From an uncultured bacterium (GTDB lineage Bacteria > Verrucomicrobiota > Kiritimatiellia > RFP12 > UBA1067), in assembly GCA_902779565.1 (NCBI GenBank), contig CACZCD010000004.1, positions 1 to 55,380 of the forward strand: a stretch of DNA of 55,380 nucleotides, read 5' to 3'. The translations under genes were made by a program, and so were the position numbers. Position 1 is the stretch's first letter. Each line of letters starts with the position of its first letter. The notes under the pieces are model-generated. The model was given only the letters and a program-made list of their open reading frames with translations, was not told the DNA's origin and searched no databases. Below are positions 8,609 to 54,941 of this stretch, in pieces.

Positions 8609-8633
8609 GTCAATCTATCTCCTTTGATTTGTA

Positions 8634-8680
8634 ACAACTAAGCACTAACAACTAACCACTAGCCACTAACAACTAACCAC
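8634..8680. repeat. Heptamer array A, containing the hisF stop codon
   Basis: Six contiguous 7-base units plus a part: acaacta, agcacta, acaacta, accacta, gccacta, acaacta, accac. On the coding strand each full unit starts with TAG. The hisF stop (8666-8668) is the TAG of unit gccacta, so the last residues of HisF (V-V-S-C) are encoded by the array. The array fills most of the 57-base gap to the nucleotidyltransferase gene. Confidence 0.95.
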
Positions 8681-9436
8681 GAAGCCACGCTCCTTCAGGA
8701 ACGCCTTGAGTTCAGGGATCCCGATGATGTGGAAATGGAACACGCTCGCGGCGAGCAGCACCGTCGCGCCCGCCTCAGCGGCCTCGGCAAAATGCTCTAT
8801 CGTGCCCGCGCCGCCGGAAGCGACGATGTCGGCATCCGTCACCTCGCGGATCTTGCGGATGAGCGGCAGGTCATAGCCCGTGCGCACGCCGTCGGTCGAT
8901 TTGGAGGTCGGCAGCACCGTCCGCACACCGTACCCGACAACCTTCTTCGTCCATTCGATCGCATCCGCGCCCGTCGCCGTGCGGCCGCCGTCGATGAACA
9001 CCTCGTAGCCGGAAGGCATCGCCGCGTTCTGCGCCACGTCGATCGCCACCGTCACCTTCCCATCGCCGAACGCCTTCACCAGCTCGCCGATCATCTCGGG
9101 ACGACGGAAGACGGCGGAGGAGGTCGAGATCTTGTTCGCGCCCGCGTTCAACACCTCTTCGGCCGCCGCGACGGACGAGATGCCGCCGCCCATCGTGAAC
9201 GGCACCGTCACCGCCTCGGCGACCTTGCGCACCGTCTCGAGCATCGTCTTGCGACCTTCCACGGTCGCCGTGATGTCGAGCATGGCCAGCTCATCGGCGC
9301 CCGCCGCGCAATAGGCCTTGCAGCATTCCACAGGATCACCCGCGTCCTTGATGTCCACGAAATTCACGCCCTTCACGACGCGGCCCTTGATCATATCCAT
9401 GCACGGCATGATCACCAACGGTTTCTTCTCGCTCAT
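8666..9436 (-). CDS. hisF: HisF-like imidazole glycerol phosphate synthase cyclase (variant)
   Basis: A 256-residue TIM barrel clearly homologous to HisF, the cyclase that turns PRFAR plus ammonia into IGP and AICAR in histidine synthesis. The first catalytic Asp ('PCMD', residue 14), 'GRVVKG', 'MGGGI', the second catalytic Asp ('AIDV') and 'ASGGAG' are present. Odd points by alignment from memory with Thermotoga HisF: the ammonia-gate Arg5 is Val and Glu167 is Thr, Asp98 is Asn, and the 'LTSIDRDGT' loop reads 'PTSKSTDGV'. No hisH or other histidine gene is near. It could be an ammonia-dependent or HisH-divergent cyclase, or a paralogue with another amidation role. SD CCGGAG precedes the ATG. 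Confidence 0.85.
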   Translation of the reverse strand: MSEKKPLVIMPCMDMIKGRVVKGVNFVDIKDAGDPVECCKAYCAAGADELAMLDITATVEGRKTMLETVRKVAEAVTVPFTMGGGISSVAAAEEVLNAGANKISTSSAVFRRPEMIGELVKAFGDGKVTVAIDVAQNAAMPSGYEVFIDGGRTATGADAIEWTKKVVGYGVRTVLPTSKSTDGVRTGYDLPLIRKIREVTDADIVASGGAGTIEHFAEAAEAGATVLLAASVFHFHIIGIPELKAFLKERGFVVSC

Positions 9437-20970: not shown

Positions 20971-21058
20971 CAACTAACCTCTAAACTAACAACTAACCAC
21001 CAACAACTAACCACTAGCCACCAACAACTAACCACTAACCACTAGCCACTAACCACTA
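20971..21058. repeat. Heptamer array C, containing the tlyA stop codon
   Basis: About thirteen units of the ACTAACC/ACTAGCC/ACTAACA family; from 20989 to 21058 the 7-base register is unbroken for ten units. The tlyA stop TAG (21049-21051) is the cta of unit gccacta, and the last TlyA codons (I-S-G) are array sequence. Confidence 0.95.
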
Positions 21059-21792
21059 ATCTCCTTCGCCCACCACGCCAGATACTCCACGTTCCCCTTG
21101 TCTCGCCCCTTGATCGGCGATTCCACAACGCCGCGCAGGGAAAGCCCCAGTTCATTCTGGCCGAACGCGGAAATCTCCGCCACCACCTGTTCGCGCACCG
21201 CGGGATCCGTCACCACGCCACCCGGCGCGAGGCCGCGTCCGGCCTCAAACTGCGGTTTGATGAGCGAGATCATCTCGCCGCCCGCCGCCAGCACCGCCGC
21301 CATCGGCGGCAGGATGAGCTTCAGGGAGATGAAGCTCACATCCGTCACCGCGCGCGTCGGACATTCCGGCAGATCCGCCGCCGACAGATACCGCGCGTTG
21401 AAGTTCTCCCGCACCCACACGCGCGGATCCGCGCGCAGCTTCCACGCCAACTGGTTCGTGCCCACATCCACCGCCATCACACGCTTCGCCCCGTGCTGCA
21501 GCAGGCAGTCCGTGAATCCACCCGTCGAGGAGCCGACATCCAGGCACACATGCCCTTCCACCGTCCAGCCCGGAAACGCCGCGAACGCCCCTTCCAGCTT
21601 TTCGCCGCCGCGCGAGACGAAACGCGGCGGCGCCTCGACCTCAAGATGATCTTCTTCGGTGACGGACATGGCCGCCTTCACCGCCACCTGTCCGTTCACG
21701 CGGACCTTTCCTTCCAGCACAAGCGCCTGGGCGACAGTGCGCGACGGCGCGAGGCCGCGCTCGGCGAGCGCACTGTCGAGGCGGCTTTTCAT
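21049..21792 (-). CDS. tlyA: TlyA-type 2'-O-ribose rRNA methyltransferase
   Basis: A 247-residue protein with an N-terminal S4 RNA-binding domain (about 1-60, 'SRLDSALAERGLAPSRTVAQ') and an FtsJ-like SAM methyltransferase domain ('CLDVGSSTGGFTDCLLQHGA', 'DVSFISL', 'LIKPQFE'). TlyA proteins methylate ribose in 16S and 23S rRNA; some were called haemolysins. Its start overlaps the stop of the PEGA gene, so translation is coupled. Its last codons come from the heptamer array. Confidence 0.93.
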   Translation of the reverse strand: MKSRLDSALAERGLAPSRTVAQALVLEGKVRVNGQVAVKAAMSVTEEDHLEVEAPPRFVSRGGEKLEGAFAAFPGWTVEGHVCLDVGSSTGGFTDCLLQHGAKRVMAVDVGTNQLAWKLRADPRVWVRENFNARYLSAADLPECPTRAVTDVSFISLKLILPPMAAVLAAGGEMISLIKPQFEAGRGLAPGGVVTDPAVREQVVAEISAFGQNELGLSLRGVVESPIKGRDKGNVEYLAWWAKEISG

Positions 21793-34750: not shown

Positions 34751-34790
34751 CCAATCCACCAATCCCCCAATCCTCCACTCCTCCAATCAC
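34751..34790. repeat. Octamer array F
   Basis: Five 8-base units: ccaatcca, ccaatccc, ccaatcct, ccactcct, ccaatcac. It lies about 35 bases after the stop of the nitroreductase gene, next to the REP-like hairpin. Confidence 0.9.
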
Positions 34791-34824
34791 CCAAAACAGG
34801 CAACCACACAGTGACCGGCGAAAC

Positions 34825-36811: not shown

Positions 36812-39757
36812 TCATTCACTCTCTCGAATCCATTTGGCCTGAATTATATCACAAGACGCGACGACGGCGTGACGTTCGCCATGCGCAAGCCATCTCATCA
36901 GGTTCGCACGGAACGACGCGCTCTCGGGTGTGGTGCCGGAGATGTCCAGCCCGGAGATATAAATCTCGCGTCCGCCGTCGGCACGCACTTTCGCCGCCAG
37001 ATAAAGATACGCGTCCTTCAGTCCTTCGCCGACAATCACGTAGTCCTCTTCGGCGTAGCCGACCACCGGAAGCCTCTCGCCCTCCTTGATGAGGCGGAAG
37101 AGGATCGGCGAGAGGAATGGTTCGTACGGAAAATCGCCGAAACAGGCGTGAGGCTTCACCGCCGTACCGACCTGCTTGCCGAGCCACCACCAGCCCATCG
37201 TGAAGTTGGCCTTGTCCGAGCGGTTGCCGACAACAAGCAGGTTCTTGCCCGCGCGCCGCGCCGCATCGGCTTCCTTCGAGCCGTAATCCGCGACAACGAC
37301 GCTCTCCGGATCGTCAGGCGTCTCCGACTTCGGAAAGAACCAGAAGTCCCAGGAATTGGCGAGACCCGCAAGCGCGACCTGCAACGTCGCCTTCACCGGC
37401 TTCTCGACAGATGGCACCCGCACGCGCATGCGCGCGAGGATCCGCATCGGCCCGCGCGGCTGAGCGCCTACGGACTTCTCGCCCGTGACGAGCGTCGCGC
37501 CTTCAGGCGAAACAAAACGCCAGACCAAAACGCCATCGTCGATTTCGAGATCCTCGTCATAGTGGGAAAGCATGATGTCGAGAGGGATCTCATCGCCTGC
37601 GGCATACACTCTGTTCGTCGCTTCGCGCACGCCCACGTGGGACGAGCAGTACACAAGCCCGTCCGGGTATGGATCGCCCCGACGGTCCGCCGGTCCGTCG
37701 TTGTCGATGAGAAGGCAAGACGAGGAATTGTAGACCGCCGCCTCTGCGACAGTCGTGCCGCCGCGCTTCGGCTGCCAGAACGGCGTGAACATCCCCTGCG
37801 CCGTATAGACGCCGGAGGCTTTGTTGAAAACGGTGGAGTCGACAATCGTCCAGAAAACGTATCCGTCACAGAACGGATCGGCACGCGCCGCCTCGATGCC
37901 GTTCTTCTGCCAGTATTTCTGAAGTGCATGCTGCGCGTCCTGCAAACGGTCGAGCCAACCGTCGGAGAGTCCGGCGTGGGCGAGGTGCGCACGCCGCTGC
38001 GAACGCGTCATCGGCGGCGCGAGGACGCCGCTCCACTTCGACTCGTCGCGGCAGTCGGCTTTCGCCGCGAGGTTCAGGTATTCGTGCGCGACAAGCGGCA
38101 CGGGCGGATCGATCGCGCCGCGCCGCCAGCTCGTGAGCGGACCGTTCGCGAAGTCGCTCGTGCCGCGCCCCCAGTCAGGGCGTAGGTAGCTCCCGCCATC
38201 CTGCTCGATCGCAAGGCTCCCCGGGTCGAGCTCCTTGTGGAAACGGTATAGGAGACGACCGGCCTCTGGACCCAACGTGCCCTCGTTGCCGACGCCACGC
38301 ACGGCGTACGAGACGTTCCGCCGCAGCGCGACGAAGGCGTCGTAGGCGTCGCGCAGCGGATCGTAGTCGAAATGGTCGTTCGGTTCGTCCGCGTAGTAGG
38401 CGAGTTCCGGTGCAAGCAGGACGCCCGCCTCGTCCGCTGCGTCGAAGTACTCGGGCTGTTCGTAGTGGGTGTGCATGCGCACATAGTTGAAACCGGCGGC
38501 CTTCAGCATCTTCAGGTGCGCAAGGTGGAAGGCCCTGTCCGCCGGCGAAACGCCCGTCGCGGGATACACGGAGTTGTCGCCGCATCCCCGTATGTAGAAC
38601 GGCTTGTCGTTCAGGTAGAAGTCTTTGCCCCGCACCTCGAGCTTCCTTACGCCGAAGCGCTCAAGCCGCGAATGGAACACCTTCCCGTCCGCCGCGACAA
38701 GGTCAACCCGCGCCGTGTACAGGTTGGGATGCGCCGGCGACCAGGCGCGAAAATTCCGGAGCGGAACTGCAAGTTGAACGTGCAGAGTTGAGAGTTGAGA
38801 ATTGAAAGAATGGTCTCGGGGCAATTCAACAGTCATCGTCTTGTCTTCAACAGCGACGCGGATCTGGTAGGGCGCGTTGTCCTCAACGCGCCGTTCGGCG
38901 GCTTGGGGACAAGCCGCCCTACCTTGACTAGCCGCCCTGCCAACGGTGATATGCGCCACCGCCTCCCGTCGGTCAAAATCACCCCGAACCCAGGCATCAT
39001 CGATGAAGACAGCCGGCGTCGCCTCGATTTCGACATCACGAACGATGCCGCCCCAGCGGTTCTTGCCGCTCGCGATGCCGCCGCGGGCCGCGACGGCGTT
39101 GTCTGCGCAGATCATCACGAGCGCGGTCTCGCCCGGCTTCGCGAAATCCGTGATCTCCCATTTCCAGGCACCGACACCGGCGTCAAAGAGCGCCACGGCA
39201 TGTCCGTTCACATAGCACCAGCCGCGAGAGCGTATGCCGCCGACCTTGAGCCAGAGGCGACTGCCCTCCCAGTCCGCAGGAATCGCCACGTCCTTCCTGT
39301 ACCAGCACGCCCCCGCGTAGAAATGGCGCAGCTCCTGTTCAATAGAGTCGGTGCAAAGGTGCGGAACGCCCTTGCCGGGCTCGCCGATGCCGCTCGCTTC
39401 CCAGCATCCGGGGACGGTGACGCGGTGAACGAAGTCCGTGCCGGACGAGGCATACCACTTGTTGCGCTGCCCGCCCCAACGGATGCCGTACTGAATCTCC
39501 TGCAGCGACCGCCCGGCCACGGCGCCGTGCGGACGCTTGACAAGTTCCCATTCGCCCGCAAGCGAAATAGACTTCGTTCCCTCGGCCCTGACAGGCGGGT
39601 TGACGACGGCTGGATGGCGCGCGATCCCCGCCCAGACATCGCCGCCCGACACACCGGCCTTCCGCCGGAAATCCGACAGCGCGTCGTCCCATCCGGCCTG
39701 CACCGACAAGGCGGAAAACAGAATTGCCGCCGCCGTCTCAAAGCCAATCATTCTCAT
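36812..39757 (-). CDS. Exported GH2 beta-galactosidase-like enzyme with repeat-derived inserts
   Basis: A 981-residue exported GH2 enzyme: signal peptide (about 1-22), sugar-binding jelly roll with 'GTDFVHRVTVPGCWE', immunoglobulin-like domain, TIM barrel, and an extended C-terminal region including an amidotransferase-like fold. The acid/base Glu492 ('GVGNEG') and nucleophile Glu559 ('VAHEYLNL') are present. Retaining beta-galactosidase or a related activity is expected. Two stretches are foreign: residues about 273-298 are encoded by paired REP-like hairpins, and about 316-330 by six in-frame heptamer units. Both keep the frame open. ATG at 39755-39757 is chosen; a TTG six codons up is less likely. 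It starts 21 bases after der. Confidence 0.88.
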   Translation of the reverse strand: MRMIGFETAAAILFSALSVQAGWDDALSDFRRKAGVSGGDVWAGIARHPAVVNPPVRAEGTKSISLAGEWELVKRPHGAVAGRSLQEIQYGIRWGGQRNKWYASSGTDFVHRVTVPGCWEASGIGEPGKGVPHLCTDSIEQELRHFYAGACWYRKDVAIPADWEGSRLWLKVGGIRSRGWCYVNGHAVALFDAGVGAWKWEITDFAKPGETALVMICADNAVAARGGIASGKNRWGGIVRDVEIEATPAVFIDDAWVRGDFDRREAVAHITVGRAASQGRAACPQAAERRVEDNAPYQIRVAVEDKTMTVELPRDHSFNSQLSTLHVQLAVPLRNFRAWSPAHPNLYTARVDLVAADGKVFHSRLERFGVRKLEVRGKDFYLNDKPFYIRGCGDNSVYPATGVSPADRAFHLAHLKMLKAAGFNYVRMHTHYEQPEYFDAADEAGVLLAPELAYYADEPNDHFDYDPLRDAYDAFVALRRNVSYAVRGVGNEGTLGPEAGRLLYRFHKELDPGSLAIEQDGGSYLRPDWGRGTSDFANGPLTSWRRGAIDPPVPLVAHEYLNLAAKADCRDESKWSGVLAPPMTRSQRRAHLAHAGLSDGWLDRLQDAQHALQKYWQKNGIEAARADPFCDGYVFWTIVDSTVFNKASGVYTAQGMFTPFWQPKRGGTTVAEAAVYNSSSCLLIDNDGPADRRGDPYPDGLVYCSSHVGVREATNRVYAAGDEIPLDIMLSHYDEDLEIDDGVLVWRFVSPEGATLVTGEKSVGAQPRGPMRILARMRVRVPSVEKPVKATLQVALAGLANSWDFWFFPKSETPDDPESVVVADYGSKEADAARRAGKNLLVVGNRSDKANFTMGWWWLGKQVGTAVKPHACFGDFPYEPFLSPILFRLIKEGERLPVVGYAEEDYVIVGEGLKDAYLYLAAKVRADGGREIYISGLDISGTTPESASFRANLMRWLAHGERHAVVASCDIIQAKWIRESE
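36843..36848 (-). promoter_or_regulatory. Extended -10 promoter inside the end of the GH2 gene
   Basis: Minus strand CTTGTGATATAATTCA: TGA-TATAAT, about 49 bases before the start of the amidotransferase-like gene and within the last 13 codons of the GH2 gene. It could give separate expression of the downstream pair. Confidence 0.5.
38770..38811. repeat. Heptamer array G, in frame inside the GH2 gene
   Basis: Six units in exact register: caagttg, aacgtgc, agagttg, agagttg, agaattg, aaagaat. Length 42 bases equals 14 codons, so the frame is kept. In the coding direction it reads without stops ('NSQLSTLHVQ'). Confidence 0.85.
38866..38941. repeat. Paired REP-like hairpins inside the GH2 gene
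   Basis: GGCGCGTTG-TCCT-CAACGCGCC (38871-38892) and GGCGGCTTG-GGGA-CAAGCCGCC (38897-38918) are two perfect nine-pair hairpins, followed by CTACC and a partial third copy. They encode an Ala/Arg-rich insert (around 'GRAASQGRAACPQAAERR'). Confidence 0.85.
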
Positions 39758-39778
39758 GCTCTTCACCAGCCCCAAGCT

Positions 39779-44410: not shown

Positions 44411-44465
44411 CCCTTCAACCTCTCAACCTTCAACTTTTCAACCTTTCAACTTTTCAACTTTTCAA
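44411..44465. repeat. Octamer array I, containing the deoC stop codon
   Basis: Units cccttcaa, cctctcaa, ccttcaa (7 bases), cttttcaa, cctttcaa, cttttcaa, cttttcaa. The deoC stop TGA (44446-44448) and codons E-K-L-K-S are inside the array. Confidence 0.93.
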
Positions 44466-45117
44466 CGATCTCCACACCGGCGCTGCAGCCAAGACGGTTT
44501 GCGCCGGCAGCGAGCATCTTGAGCGCGTCGTCAAGCGTGCGGATGCCGCCCGCCGCCTTCACGCCCATCGTCTTGCCCACGGTCTTGCGCATCAGCGCCA
44601 CGTCCGCGACGGTCGCGCCACCCGTGCCGAAGCCCGTGGAGGTCTTCACGAAATCGAACCCCGCCTTCTTCGCGAGCCGACACGCAAGAACCTTCTCGTC
44701 GTCTGTGAGGTAGCAGCACTCGATGATGAGCTTCGTCACCACCTCGTCGCTGACCTTCTTCGGGGCGAGATTGAGCAGCGTAAGATCCTCCAGCACCGCG
44801 TCGGACGGCTTCGTGCGGAGATCGCGGATGTTCAGCACGTAATCGATGTCCGTTGCGCCGTCCTGAACGGCCTCCACCGCCTCAAAGCACTTCACCTTCA
44901 CGGTGTTCTGTCCGAGGGGGAAGCCGACCACCGTGCCCACGCGCACGCCGGAGCCGTCAAGCAGCTCCGCCGCACGCTTCACTTCGGCAGGGTTCACCAT
45001 CGCGCAGGCGAAATGGTATTTCTTCGCCTCGGCGCAAAGCCGCTCCACGGCGTCGGGATCACCCGCCGCCTTCAGAAACGTATGGTCTATGCACGCAGCG
45101 ATCTCGCGCTTCGTCAT
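44446..45117 (-). CDS. deoC: Deoxyribose-phosphate aldolase
   Basis: A 223-residue class I aldolase that splits 2-deoxyribose-5-phosphate into acetaldehyde and glyceraldehyde-3-phosphate. The Schiff-base lysine block 'FDFVKTSTGFGTGGAT' and the second lysine in 'GVKAAGGIRT' are present. The last six residues ('VEKLKS') come from octamer array I. Its SD (GGAG) is in the end of array J. It lies between secC and hisS on one strand. Confidence 0.95.
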   Translation of the reverse strand: MTKREIAACIDHTFLKAAGDPDAVERLCAEAKKYHFACAMVNPAEVKRAAELLDGSGVRVGTVVGFPLGQNTVKVKCFEAVEAVQDGATDIDYVLNIRDLRTKPSDAVLEDLTLLNLAPKKVSDEVVTKLIIECCYLTDDEKVLACRLAKKAGFDFVKTSTGFGTGGATVADVALMRKTVGKTMGVKAAGGIRTLDDALKMLAAGANRLGCSAGVEIVEKLKS

Positions 45118-45126
45118 TTCTCAACT

Positions 45127-45168
45127 CCAAACACCAAACTGAAAACTCTAAACTGGAAACTCTAAACT
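45127..45168. repeat. Heptamer array J between the SEC-C gene and deoC
   Basis: Units ccaaaca, ccaaact, gaaaact, ctaaact, ggaaact, ctaaact in exact register. It starts six bases beyond the SEC-C gene stop. On the coding strand its far end contains TTTGGAG, the apparent SD of deoC. Confidence 0.93.
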
Positions 45169-45695: not shown

Positions 45696-45784
45696 CTCTA
45701 AACTCTAAACTGGAAACTCTAAACTGAAAACTCCAACTCCAACTCTTCACTATTCACTATCCACTATTCGCTATTCGCTATCCA
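45696..45784. repeat. Composite heptamer array K, containing the ribBA stop codon
   Basis: Two families side by side. Units ctctaaa, ctctaaa, ctggaaa, ctctaaa, ctgaaaa (45696-45730, same family as array J), two 6-base units, then ctcttca, ctattca, ctatcca, ctattcg, ctattcg, ctatcca (45743-45784) in exact register. The ribBA stop TAG (45771-45773) is the cta of a ctattcg unit. Confidence 0.95.
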
Positions 45785-54164: not shown

Positions 54165-54941
54165 TCAAAGGGCCTCGATGCGGAGAATGCGAAGGATCGC
54201 GGGGCGGCCATAGTCGCGCTTGCCCAGTCCGGTGCCCACGCCCAGAACCCGATAGGCGGGCGGCAGCGTGTCGCGCGTGCGGAACGCCGCCGCGAGCGCA
54301 ATGCCCGTGGGCGTGACGCATTCGCCTTTCGTCTCGGAAGGTCGGAGCGGGATTCCCGTCGCCGCCGCGATGTTGAGAACCGCCGGCACGGGCACGGGCA
54401 GCTCGCCATGCGCGCACATCACGGTGCCGATCCCTTCCGTCAGCCCCGTCACCACGCACTCCGTCTCGCCAAGATCGTCGAACAGCACCGCCGCCGAAAT
54501 GATATCCACGATGGAATCGATGGCGCCGACCTCATGGAAATGCACCTCCTCGATCGGCTTGCCGTGCGCCTTCGCCTCCGCATCGGCGACAAAACGGAAC
54601 GCCTTCTTCGCCAGGGCGCGCGCACGGTCGCTCATCGCACCGCGATCGATGATCGCCTCCACGTCCGCCAGGTTCCGGTGCTCATGGTGGTGGTGGTGTT
54701 CGTGATGGTGGTGTTCGTGGTGGTGATCGTGCTCGTGGTGGTGATGATGCGGCAGGATGACATCAAAGTCCGTCCCCGCGATGCCGTAGGATGATTTCTG
54801 CGCAATCACGTAGGAAAACTCATCGCCGAGCTTCAGCGAATCCAGCGTCTCCTTGAGACGTTCGGCACGCGCGCCAAGCGACAGCAGCGCGCCCACCGTC
54901 ATGTCGCCGGAGATCCCGGCCGCTCCTTCAATGTAAATCAT
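54165..54941 (-). CDS. larC: LarC N-terminal part (LarC1), nickel-pincer cofactor protein
   Basis: A 258-residue protein matching the first two-thirds of LarC, which inserts nickel into the pyridinium-dithiodicarboxylate cofactor of lactate racemase. It starts 'MIYIEGAAGISGDMTVGALLSLGA', has 'HFHEVGAIDSIVDI' and 'TPTGIALAA', and a histidine-rich run (about residues 64-88) that probably binds nickel. It stops at 'RPAILRILRIEAL', about where LarC1 ends in species with a split or frameshifted gene. No LarC2 follows: nadD begins one base later. No larA, larB or larE is in the window. Confidence 0.88.
   Translation of the reverse strand: MIYIEGAAGISGDMTVGALLSLGARAERLKETLDSLKLGDEFSYVIAQKSSYGIAGTDFDVILPHHHHHEHDHHHEHHHHEHHHHHEHRNLADVEAIIDRGAMSDRARALAKKAFRFVADAEAKAHGKPIEEVHFHEVGAIDSIVDIISAAVLFDDLGETECVVTGLTEGIGTVMCAHGELPVPVPAVLNIAAATGIPLRPSETKGECVTPTGIALAAAFRTRDTLPPAYRVLGVGTGLGKRDYGRPAILRILRIEAL

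Follow-up and report, generated by a model that had tools for sequence, protein, structure and literature searches.

Heptamer and octamer arrays within protein genes of an uncultured Kiritimatiellae bacterium, with a GH2 glycosidase gene as a small example

Selfish repeats residing within genes have been described in Rickettsia and Wolbachia as palindromes that occupy a limited number of genes. In a gut lineage of the Kiritimatiellae, tandem heptamers and octamers appear to do likewise at a larger scale, including in genes for CTP synthase, primase, carbamoyl-phosphate synthase, and a tRNA synthetase. The subject of this analysis is a heptamer array inside a gene for a glycoside hydrolase family 2 (GH2) enzyme, located on a 55,380-nucleotide (nt) stretch of DNA from an uncultured bacterium (contig CACZCD010000004.1, positions 1 to 55,380; here referred to as the window). 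Among the described systems, the Rickettsia palindromic elements (RPE) are palindromes of 105-146 bp that have been reported in 19 reading frames (Ogata et al. 2000, reviewed in PMC2229807). The GGGNATC heptamer repeats of Xanthomonas and Nostoc have their G-rich strand in the sense orientation near stop codons and are underrepresented in coding DNA (PMC4692102). In Beggiatoaceae, cyanobacteria, and Bacteroidetes, the TAACTGA direct repeats are confined to gene ends in one orientation by their stop codons, while the reverse orientation is readable, and there are few cases within open reading frames (ORFs) (PMC4679880). We found no report of such repeats in Kiritimatiellae or Verrucomicrobia within an open-access library. 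We propose, with a probability of roughly 0.7, that the GH2 array belongs to a large Kiritimatiellae population, specific to this lineage, of heptamer and octamer arrays and small hairpins that is filtered by reading frame, stop codons, and loop tolerance, and that the peptide it encodes is most probably just tolerated as a passenger.

The GH2-type glycosidase gene (positions 36812 to 39775, negative strand) was taken from the ORF list and encodes 987 amino acids. Its membership in the family was supported by homologues and by matches above the Pfam cut-off to PF02837 (Glyco_hydro_2_N), PF00703 (Glyco_hydro_2), and PF02836 (Glyco_hydro_2_C), the second of which covers residues 257-377. Within this domain, Tandem Repeats Finder (TRF), lag-7 self-matching, and codon reading delimited a solid array core of 22 nt on the negative strand (positions 38784 to 38805), consisting of approximately three TCAACTC units in the coding strand (period 7, 3.1 copies, 93% matches by TRF) and encoding residues 324-331 (FNSQLSTL). 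The core thus contains the at least three head-to-tail 7-nt copies that characterize the bacterial heptamer simple sequence repeats (7-nt LSSR). Its lag-7 self-match score of 12.5 was reached in none of 40 Markov-shuffled copies of the window, and the real window contained nine period-7 segments of this strength, compared with none in the 40 shuffles. Within the GH2 gene alone, the score was reached in 1 of 400 shuffled genes.

The initial annotation had assigned six units over 42 bases to this array and had estimated that the enzyme was extended by about 14 residues. The period-7 array is real and lies in an open, stop-free gene; however, its extent was overstated. In the coding strand, the stretch reads by units as CATTCTT, TCAATTC, TCAACTC, TCAACTC, TGCACGT, TCAACTT, and GCA, and by codons as CAT TCT TTC AAT TCT CAA CTC TCA ACT CTG CAC GTT CAA CTT GCA, which is free of stops. 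The units flanking the core (full extent, positions 38768 to 38811, negative strand) are degenerate, the fifth sharing just 3 of its 7 bases with the consensus. Moreover, residues ~331-338 (LHVQLAVP) at the end of the stretch align with a native strand of the homologues, e.g., VVRLPL. An AlphaFold2 model of the protein, built from 30 homologues (mean pLDDT of 82.7, pTM of 0.87), predicted strands at residues 312-317 and 329-338, the latter corresponding to the low-coordinate part of the stretch, and placed the array core in a low-confidence loop that separates them. Between anchors E310 and L339, this loop comprises 28 residues. In array-free homologues, the corresponding loop is either short (17-20 residues) or long (27-33 residues), and the length of 28 residues is therefore not abnormal in itself. 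Relative to the short-loop homologues, the net gain is near 9 residues. The alignment, the loop lengths, and the predicted strands thus led us to reject both the 42-nt extent and the 14 added residues.

The alignment with GH2 relatives had also been put forward as a test that could refute the insertion, and the array-free homologues did not carry the peptide. We compared 51 distinct homologues, counting heptamer or octamer arrays with a score of at least 12.5; the named relatives among them were Kiritimatiellae and related metagenome-assembled genomes from herbivore guts and other habitats. Every array fell in one of three loops: 10 at query residues 310-337, two near residues 279-304, and one near residue 804. 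At the loop of residues 310-337, the units differ. The gene in the window contains TCAACTC, while its paralogues C26 and C80 share CCAATCCT, L112 and L120 share AAACCATC, L019 and L110 share GGCAGTC, and single homologues contain ATTCAAAC (L108), AAACTCTC (L116), and GCAAAGAC (L025). Since related pairs share their units, the number of independent events at this loop is below 10 and at least six. Paralogues carry much longer arrays at this position than the GH2 gene of the window, whose array is a small example of a wider repeat population. No array is present in the C65 paralogue or in the G001 and G002 homologues.

A second in-frame repeat in the same gene, missed by the initial annotation, is a 58-nt palindromic element (positions 38866 to 38923, no strand assigned). 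It was recognized by its inverted repeats, which form two adjacent 9-bp hairpins (GGCGCGTTG/CAACGCGCC and GGCGGCTTG/CAAGCCGCC), encodes residues ~284-303, and is accompanied by a partial extra copy at positions 38926 to 38941. In the AlphaFold2 model, residues 284-298, encoded by the element, form the second low-confidence loop, between strands 271-280 and 304-309. Further copies occur at other places in the genome as well as in congeners, and CarB is among the other proteins that contain the element. The paralogous GH2 gene C26 has the same palindrome at the same place, and the DNA of the palindrome is far more similar than its flanks, so that simple descent from one ancestral copy is not the explanation that first suggests itself. 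The third paralogue, C80, keeps an apparent remnant of the palindrome (CGCCCTACCAGATCCGC). A search for a transposase that might be associated with the element yielded two weak, partial matches to PF01797 (Y1_Tnp) in the genome. No empty site for the GH2 array itself was found among orthologue pairs: the nearest copy of the GH2 gene, in G070, is a 94% identical piece that stops at a contig edge within the palindrome. G070 is placed in another family, and it also holds the most GGGGAAC arrays of all the genomes searched (L016, i.e., G070:C215, and L057). Horizontal transfer and bin mixing are two proposed explanations of this GH2 piece.

A census of 784 kb, approximately 19% of the genome, covered the window, the contigs matching earlier queries, and low-numbered contigs, of which the query-matched contigs are biased towards repeats and GH2 genes. 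Already in 384 kb, we counted 28 strong segments of period 7 and 14 of period 8, compared with 1 and 0, respectively, in shuffled sequences. The 784 kb contained 96 dispersed arrays of period 7 or 8, 62 of which were intergenic and 34 of which lay inside predicted genes, in agreement with the initial claim that such arrays enter coding DNA. Hosts of in-gene arrays verified by Pfam included CTP synthase (PyrG), CarA, CarB, a class I Glu/Gln-tRNA synthetase, DnaG, UxaC, a MiaB/RimO-like radical SAM enzyme and another radical SAM enzyme, a pyruvate formate-lyase-like enzyme, PfkB, an MFS protein, Dus, a homocysteine methyltransferase-like protein, Band 7, A2M, a YfbK-like protein, a sugar isomerase, and GH42. 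CarB contains a short octamer array (score of 13) in addition to the palindrome, and the MFS protein contains two arrays in mid-sequence, near residues 239-274 of 472. A 1,149-residue ORF with an octamer array (L074:4768-8217) matches no Pfam family, is of unusual composition, and is probably false. In the window, a gene also contains a repeat of period 15/18 (positions 54685 to 54743), which follows the coding period, unlike the heptamer and octamer kind.

The same few loops of conserved enzymes were hit in different species. Of 30 CTP synthase sequences, 8 have 9-16 residues between IEAE and DGILVPGGFG, and the remaining 22 have 19-38. Most of the long loops hold tandem arrays of 7, 8, or 10 nt, inverted array pairs, or hairpins with arms of 11-25 nt, while the closest solved CTP synthase in our search has a short loop at the insert site. 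PyrG is absent or fragmentary in congeners G001-G005. One CTP synthase gene carries an inverted pair of heptamer arrays (L090:4259-4346) that could fold as a long mRNA hairpin. CarA is hit repeatedly, at residues 149-176, 202-235, and 305; at the first of these loops, the GGGGAAC array of this genome has the palindromic element as its counterpart in congener G005, and a loop shared by this genome and G037 holds the GGGGAAC unit in different copy numbers. Three genomes (L317, L327, and L332) have GGGGAAC arrays at one site, after WGHRIPAY, of a valyl-tRNA synthetase-like protein, identified from this motif only. The repeated hits at the same few loops in different species indicate that the filter is wider than reading frame and stops and that the position in the fold matters. 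In effect, the different repeats at these loops provide a natural insertion-tolerance map of essential enzymes.

Filtering by frame and orientation, as initially claimed, held for orientation. Where units are stop-free on one strand only, all 7 of the arrays in genes had the open orientation, versus 8 of 19 in intergenic regions, and units stop-free in the sense direction accounted for 32 of 34 arrays in genes versus 24 of 62 elsewhere (p = 6e-8). In contrast, the expectation that the unit number of in-gene arrays is a multiple of three proved false and the rule was abandoned: among the 34 arrays, multiples of three were not preferred, the counts for remainders 0, 1, and 2 being 12/12/10 by unit number and 10/10/14 by array length. 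The reading frame must then be restored by partial units and flanks. In the MiaB/RimO-like gene (L243:9312-9379), an AACTCTA array would give an in-frame TAA every 21 nt; the codons there read CAA, GAA, and GAA.

Arrays of the GGGGAAC unit are stop-free both ways, encoding GERGTGN in the sense direction and a proline-rich peptide in the antisense direction. In this genome, GGGGAAC-like arrays were found 14 times in sense and once in antisense within genes and three times outside genes. At 20 loci from 20 other genomes, some of which represent the same gene in different species, 17 were sense, 1 was antisense, and 2 were intergenic, giving 31 sense versus 2 antisense arrays in genes over both sets. 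With 18 of the 20 loci in genes, the underrepresentation in coding DNA reported for GGGNATC was not observed. Of the 145 genomes of the order, 23 contained the exact GGGGAAC 21-mer, and none contained the reversed control. The simplest reason for the sense bias, for which stop codons cannot account, is tolerance of a hydrophilic, flexible peptide; a transcription-linked process is an alternative.

Between genes, whole arrays differ among related genomes. Three heptamer array regions on the negative strand, at positions 45700 to 45781 (AGTTTAG and ATAGTGA units in the coding sense), 45123 to 45168, and 20984 to 21059, the last overlapping the 3' end of a gene, were absent from the orthologous spacers of congeners G001, G002, and G005, all of which were array-free. 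For a fourth heptamer array (positions 8632 to 8683, negative strand), one congener was array-free, and two had the palindromic element instead. These differences are either gains or losses of whole arrays, at 15-30% divergence. The census further yielded an octamer array (GTTGAAAA in the coding sense; positions 44429 to 44466, negative strand) that overlaps the 3' end of the gene at positions 44446 to 45117, and, together with TRF, a CCAATCCT-type octamer array (positions 34751 to 34794, no strand assigned); two paralogous GH2 genes carry the same unit family in frame. The G-richer strand was the sense strand in 29 of 35 intergenic arrays near stop codons and in 8 of 20 near starts. Between positions 8632 and 45781 of the window, most intergenic arrays overlap or abut a gene's stop codon, so that the final codons and the stop often come from the array.

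We suggest that short arrays and hairpins would be seeded both between and within genes and that replication slippage would lengthen or shorten the arrays. Insertion and expansion would be widespread, with selection pruning the rest; most intergenic arrays would survive, and the in-gene survivors would be those that are in frame, stop-free in the direction read, and situated at a surface loop or linker, where their peptides would be translated and neutral. Several points weigh against this proposal. All the genomes compared are fragmented draft assemblies. We identified neither a target-site duplication nor a dedicated enzyme. Since genes are called only where a frame is open, the comparison of stop-free arrays in genes and spacers is circular in part. 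The GGGGAAC unit, although open in either direction, is sense-biased, which implies that a further filter or a strand-linked mechanism acts. Finally, the units are nonrandom, with a small number of dominant families, contrary to what would be expected of pure slippage from random seeds.

Alternatively, the arrays may have been born in place, by slippage from accidental short repeats in tolerant, fast-evolving loops, with no sequence moving between sites. Slippage of units of ~7 nt has been proposed for bacterial heptamer repeats (summarized in PMC4679880), and both the different units of different species at one loop and the differing GGGGAAC copy number at the CarA loop of this genome and G037 are consistent with it. 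However, the same few units occur at dozens of unrelated places and in 23 genomes of the order, and the sharing of loops by palindromic elements and tandem arrays is not given by slippage alone; we regard this origin as possible, with considerable doubt. It is unlikely that the arrays are functional nucleic acid elements, acting in termination, mRNA stability, or G-quadruplex or R-loop formation, whose in-gene copies were selected or formed through transcription. The sense orientation of the G-richer strand near stops, as for GGGNATC in Xanthomonas and Nostoc (PMC4692102), and the sense bias of GGGGAAC in genes speak for such a function, but genes commonly hold C-rich arrays too, among them the one in this GH2 gene and those in its paralogues, the congeners' orthologous spacers manage without arrays, and the position of in-gene arrays tracks protein loops.

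The gain or loss of a heptamer or octamer shifts the frame, and gut GH2 enzymes may face variable selection, so the peptides themselves might be useful as variable surface loops or through on/off switching of genes by copy number. Yet switching off would probably be lethal for such hosts as CTP synthase, primase, a tRNA synthetase, and carbamoyl-phosphate synthase, and the inserted peptides at one loop differ between species, which makes this explanation improbable. The shortness of the GH2 core, with its 22 nt and approximately three units, would fit chance or low-complexity coding sequence. This is by far the least credible explanation: the core was unmatched in shuffled windows, periods 7 and 8 are noncoding periods, paralogues have much longer arrays at the same loop, and no array-free homologue with the same peptide was found. 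For the whole population, we rejected chance on the segment counts of the census. More speculatively, and rather doubtfully, Kiritimatiellae might have an active process that repeatedly adds short tandem arrays to transcribed DNA and prefers one strand, as for GGGGAAC with its 31 sense versus 2 antisense arrays, so that essential enzymes would be continually lengthened at fixed loops by different repeats in each species. If true, this would amount to a proteome-wide invasion by tandem, nonpalindromic coding repeats.

The recurrence of different repeats at the same loops makes the conversion of noncoding repeats into protein sequence directly testable. As in the RPE system, small dispersed repeats are fused in frame to conserved protein genes, are absent from homologues, and occur between genes as well, and the peptide is apparently tolerated. 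The repeats differ from RPE in being tandem heptamers and octamers of many units, 20-100 nt long, in occurring in another phylum, and in being accompanied by a double hairpin of 58 nt. Not being palindromic, the heptamer array is not a member of RPE; its neighbor is palindromic but, at 58 nt, shorter than 105-146 bp. That neighbor resembles the repetitive extragenic palindrome (REP) sequences of the REP and REP-associated transposase systems in being a dispersed, GC-rich double hairpin, but it lies within genes, and the candidates for a transposase are the two weak Y1_Tnp matches. With the GGGNATC repeats of Xanthomonas and Nostoc, the arrays share genome-wide head-to-tail heptamers and a G-rich sense strand near stop codons, whereas the GGGGAAC arrays lie mostly in genes, in sense. 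The TAACTGA repeats are likewise heptamer direct repeats, but they consist of a single unit and are mostly intergenic, whereas the arrays described here comprise many units and recur in essential enzymes at the same loops.
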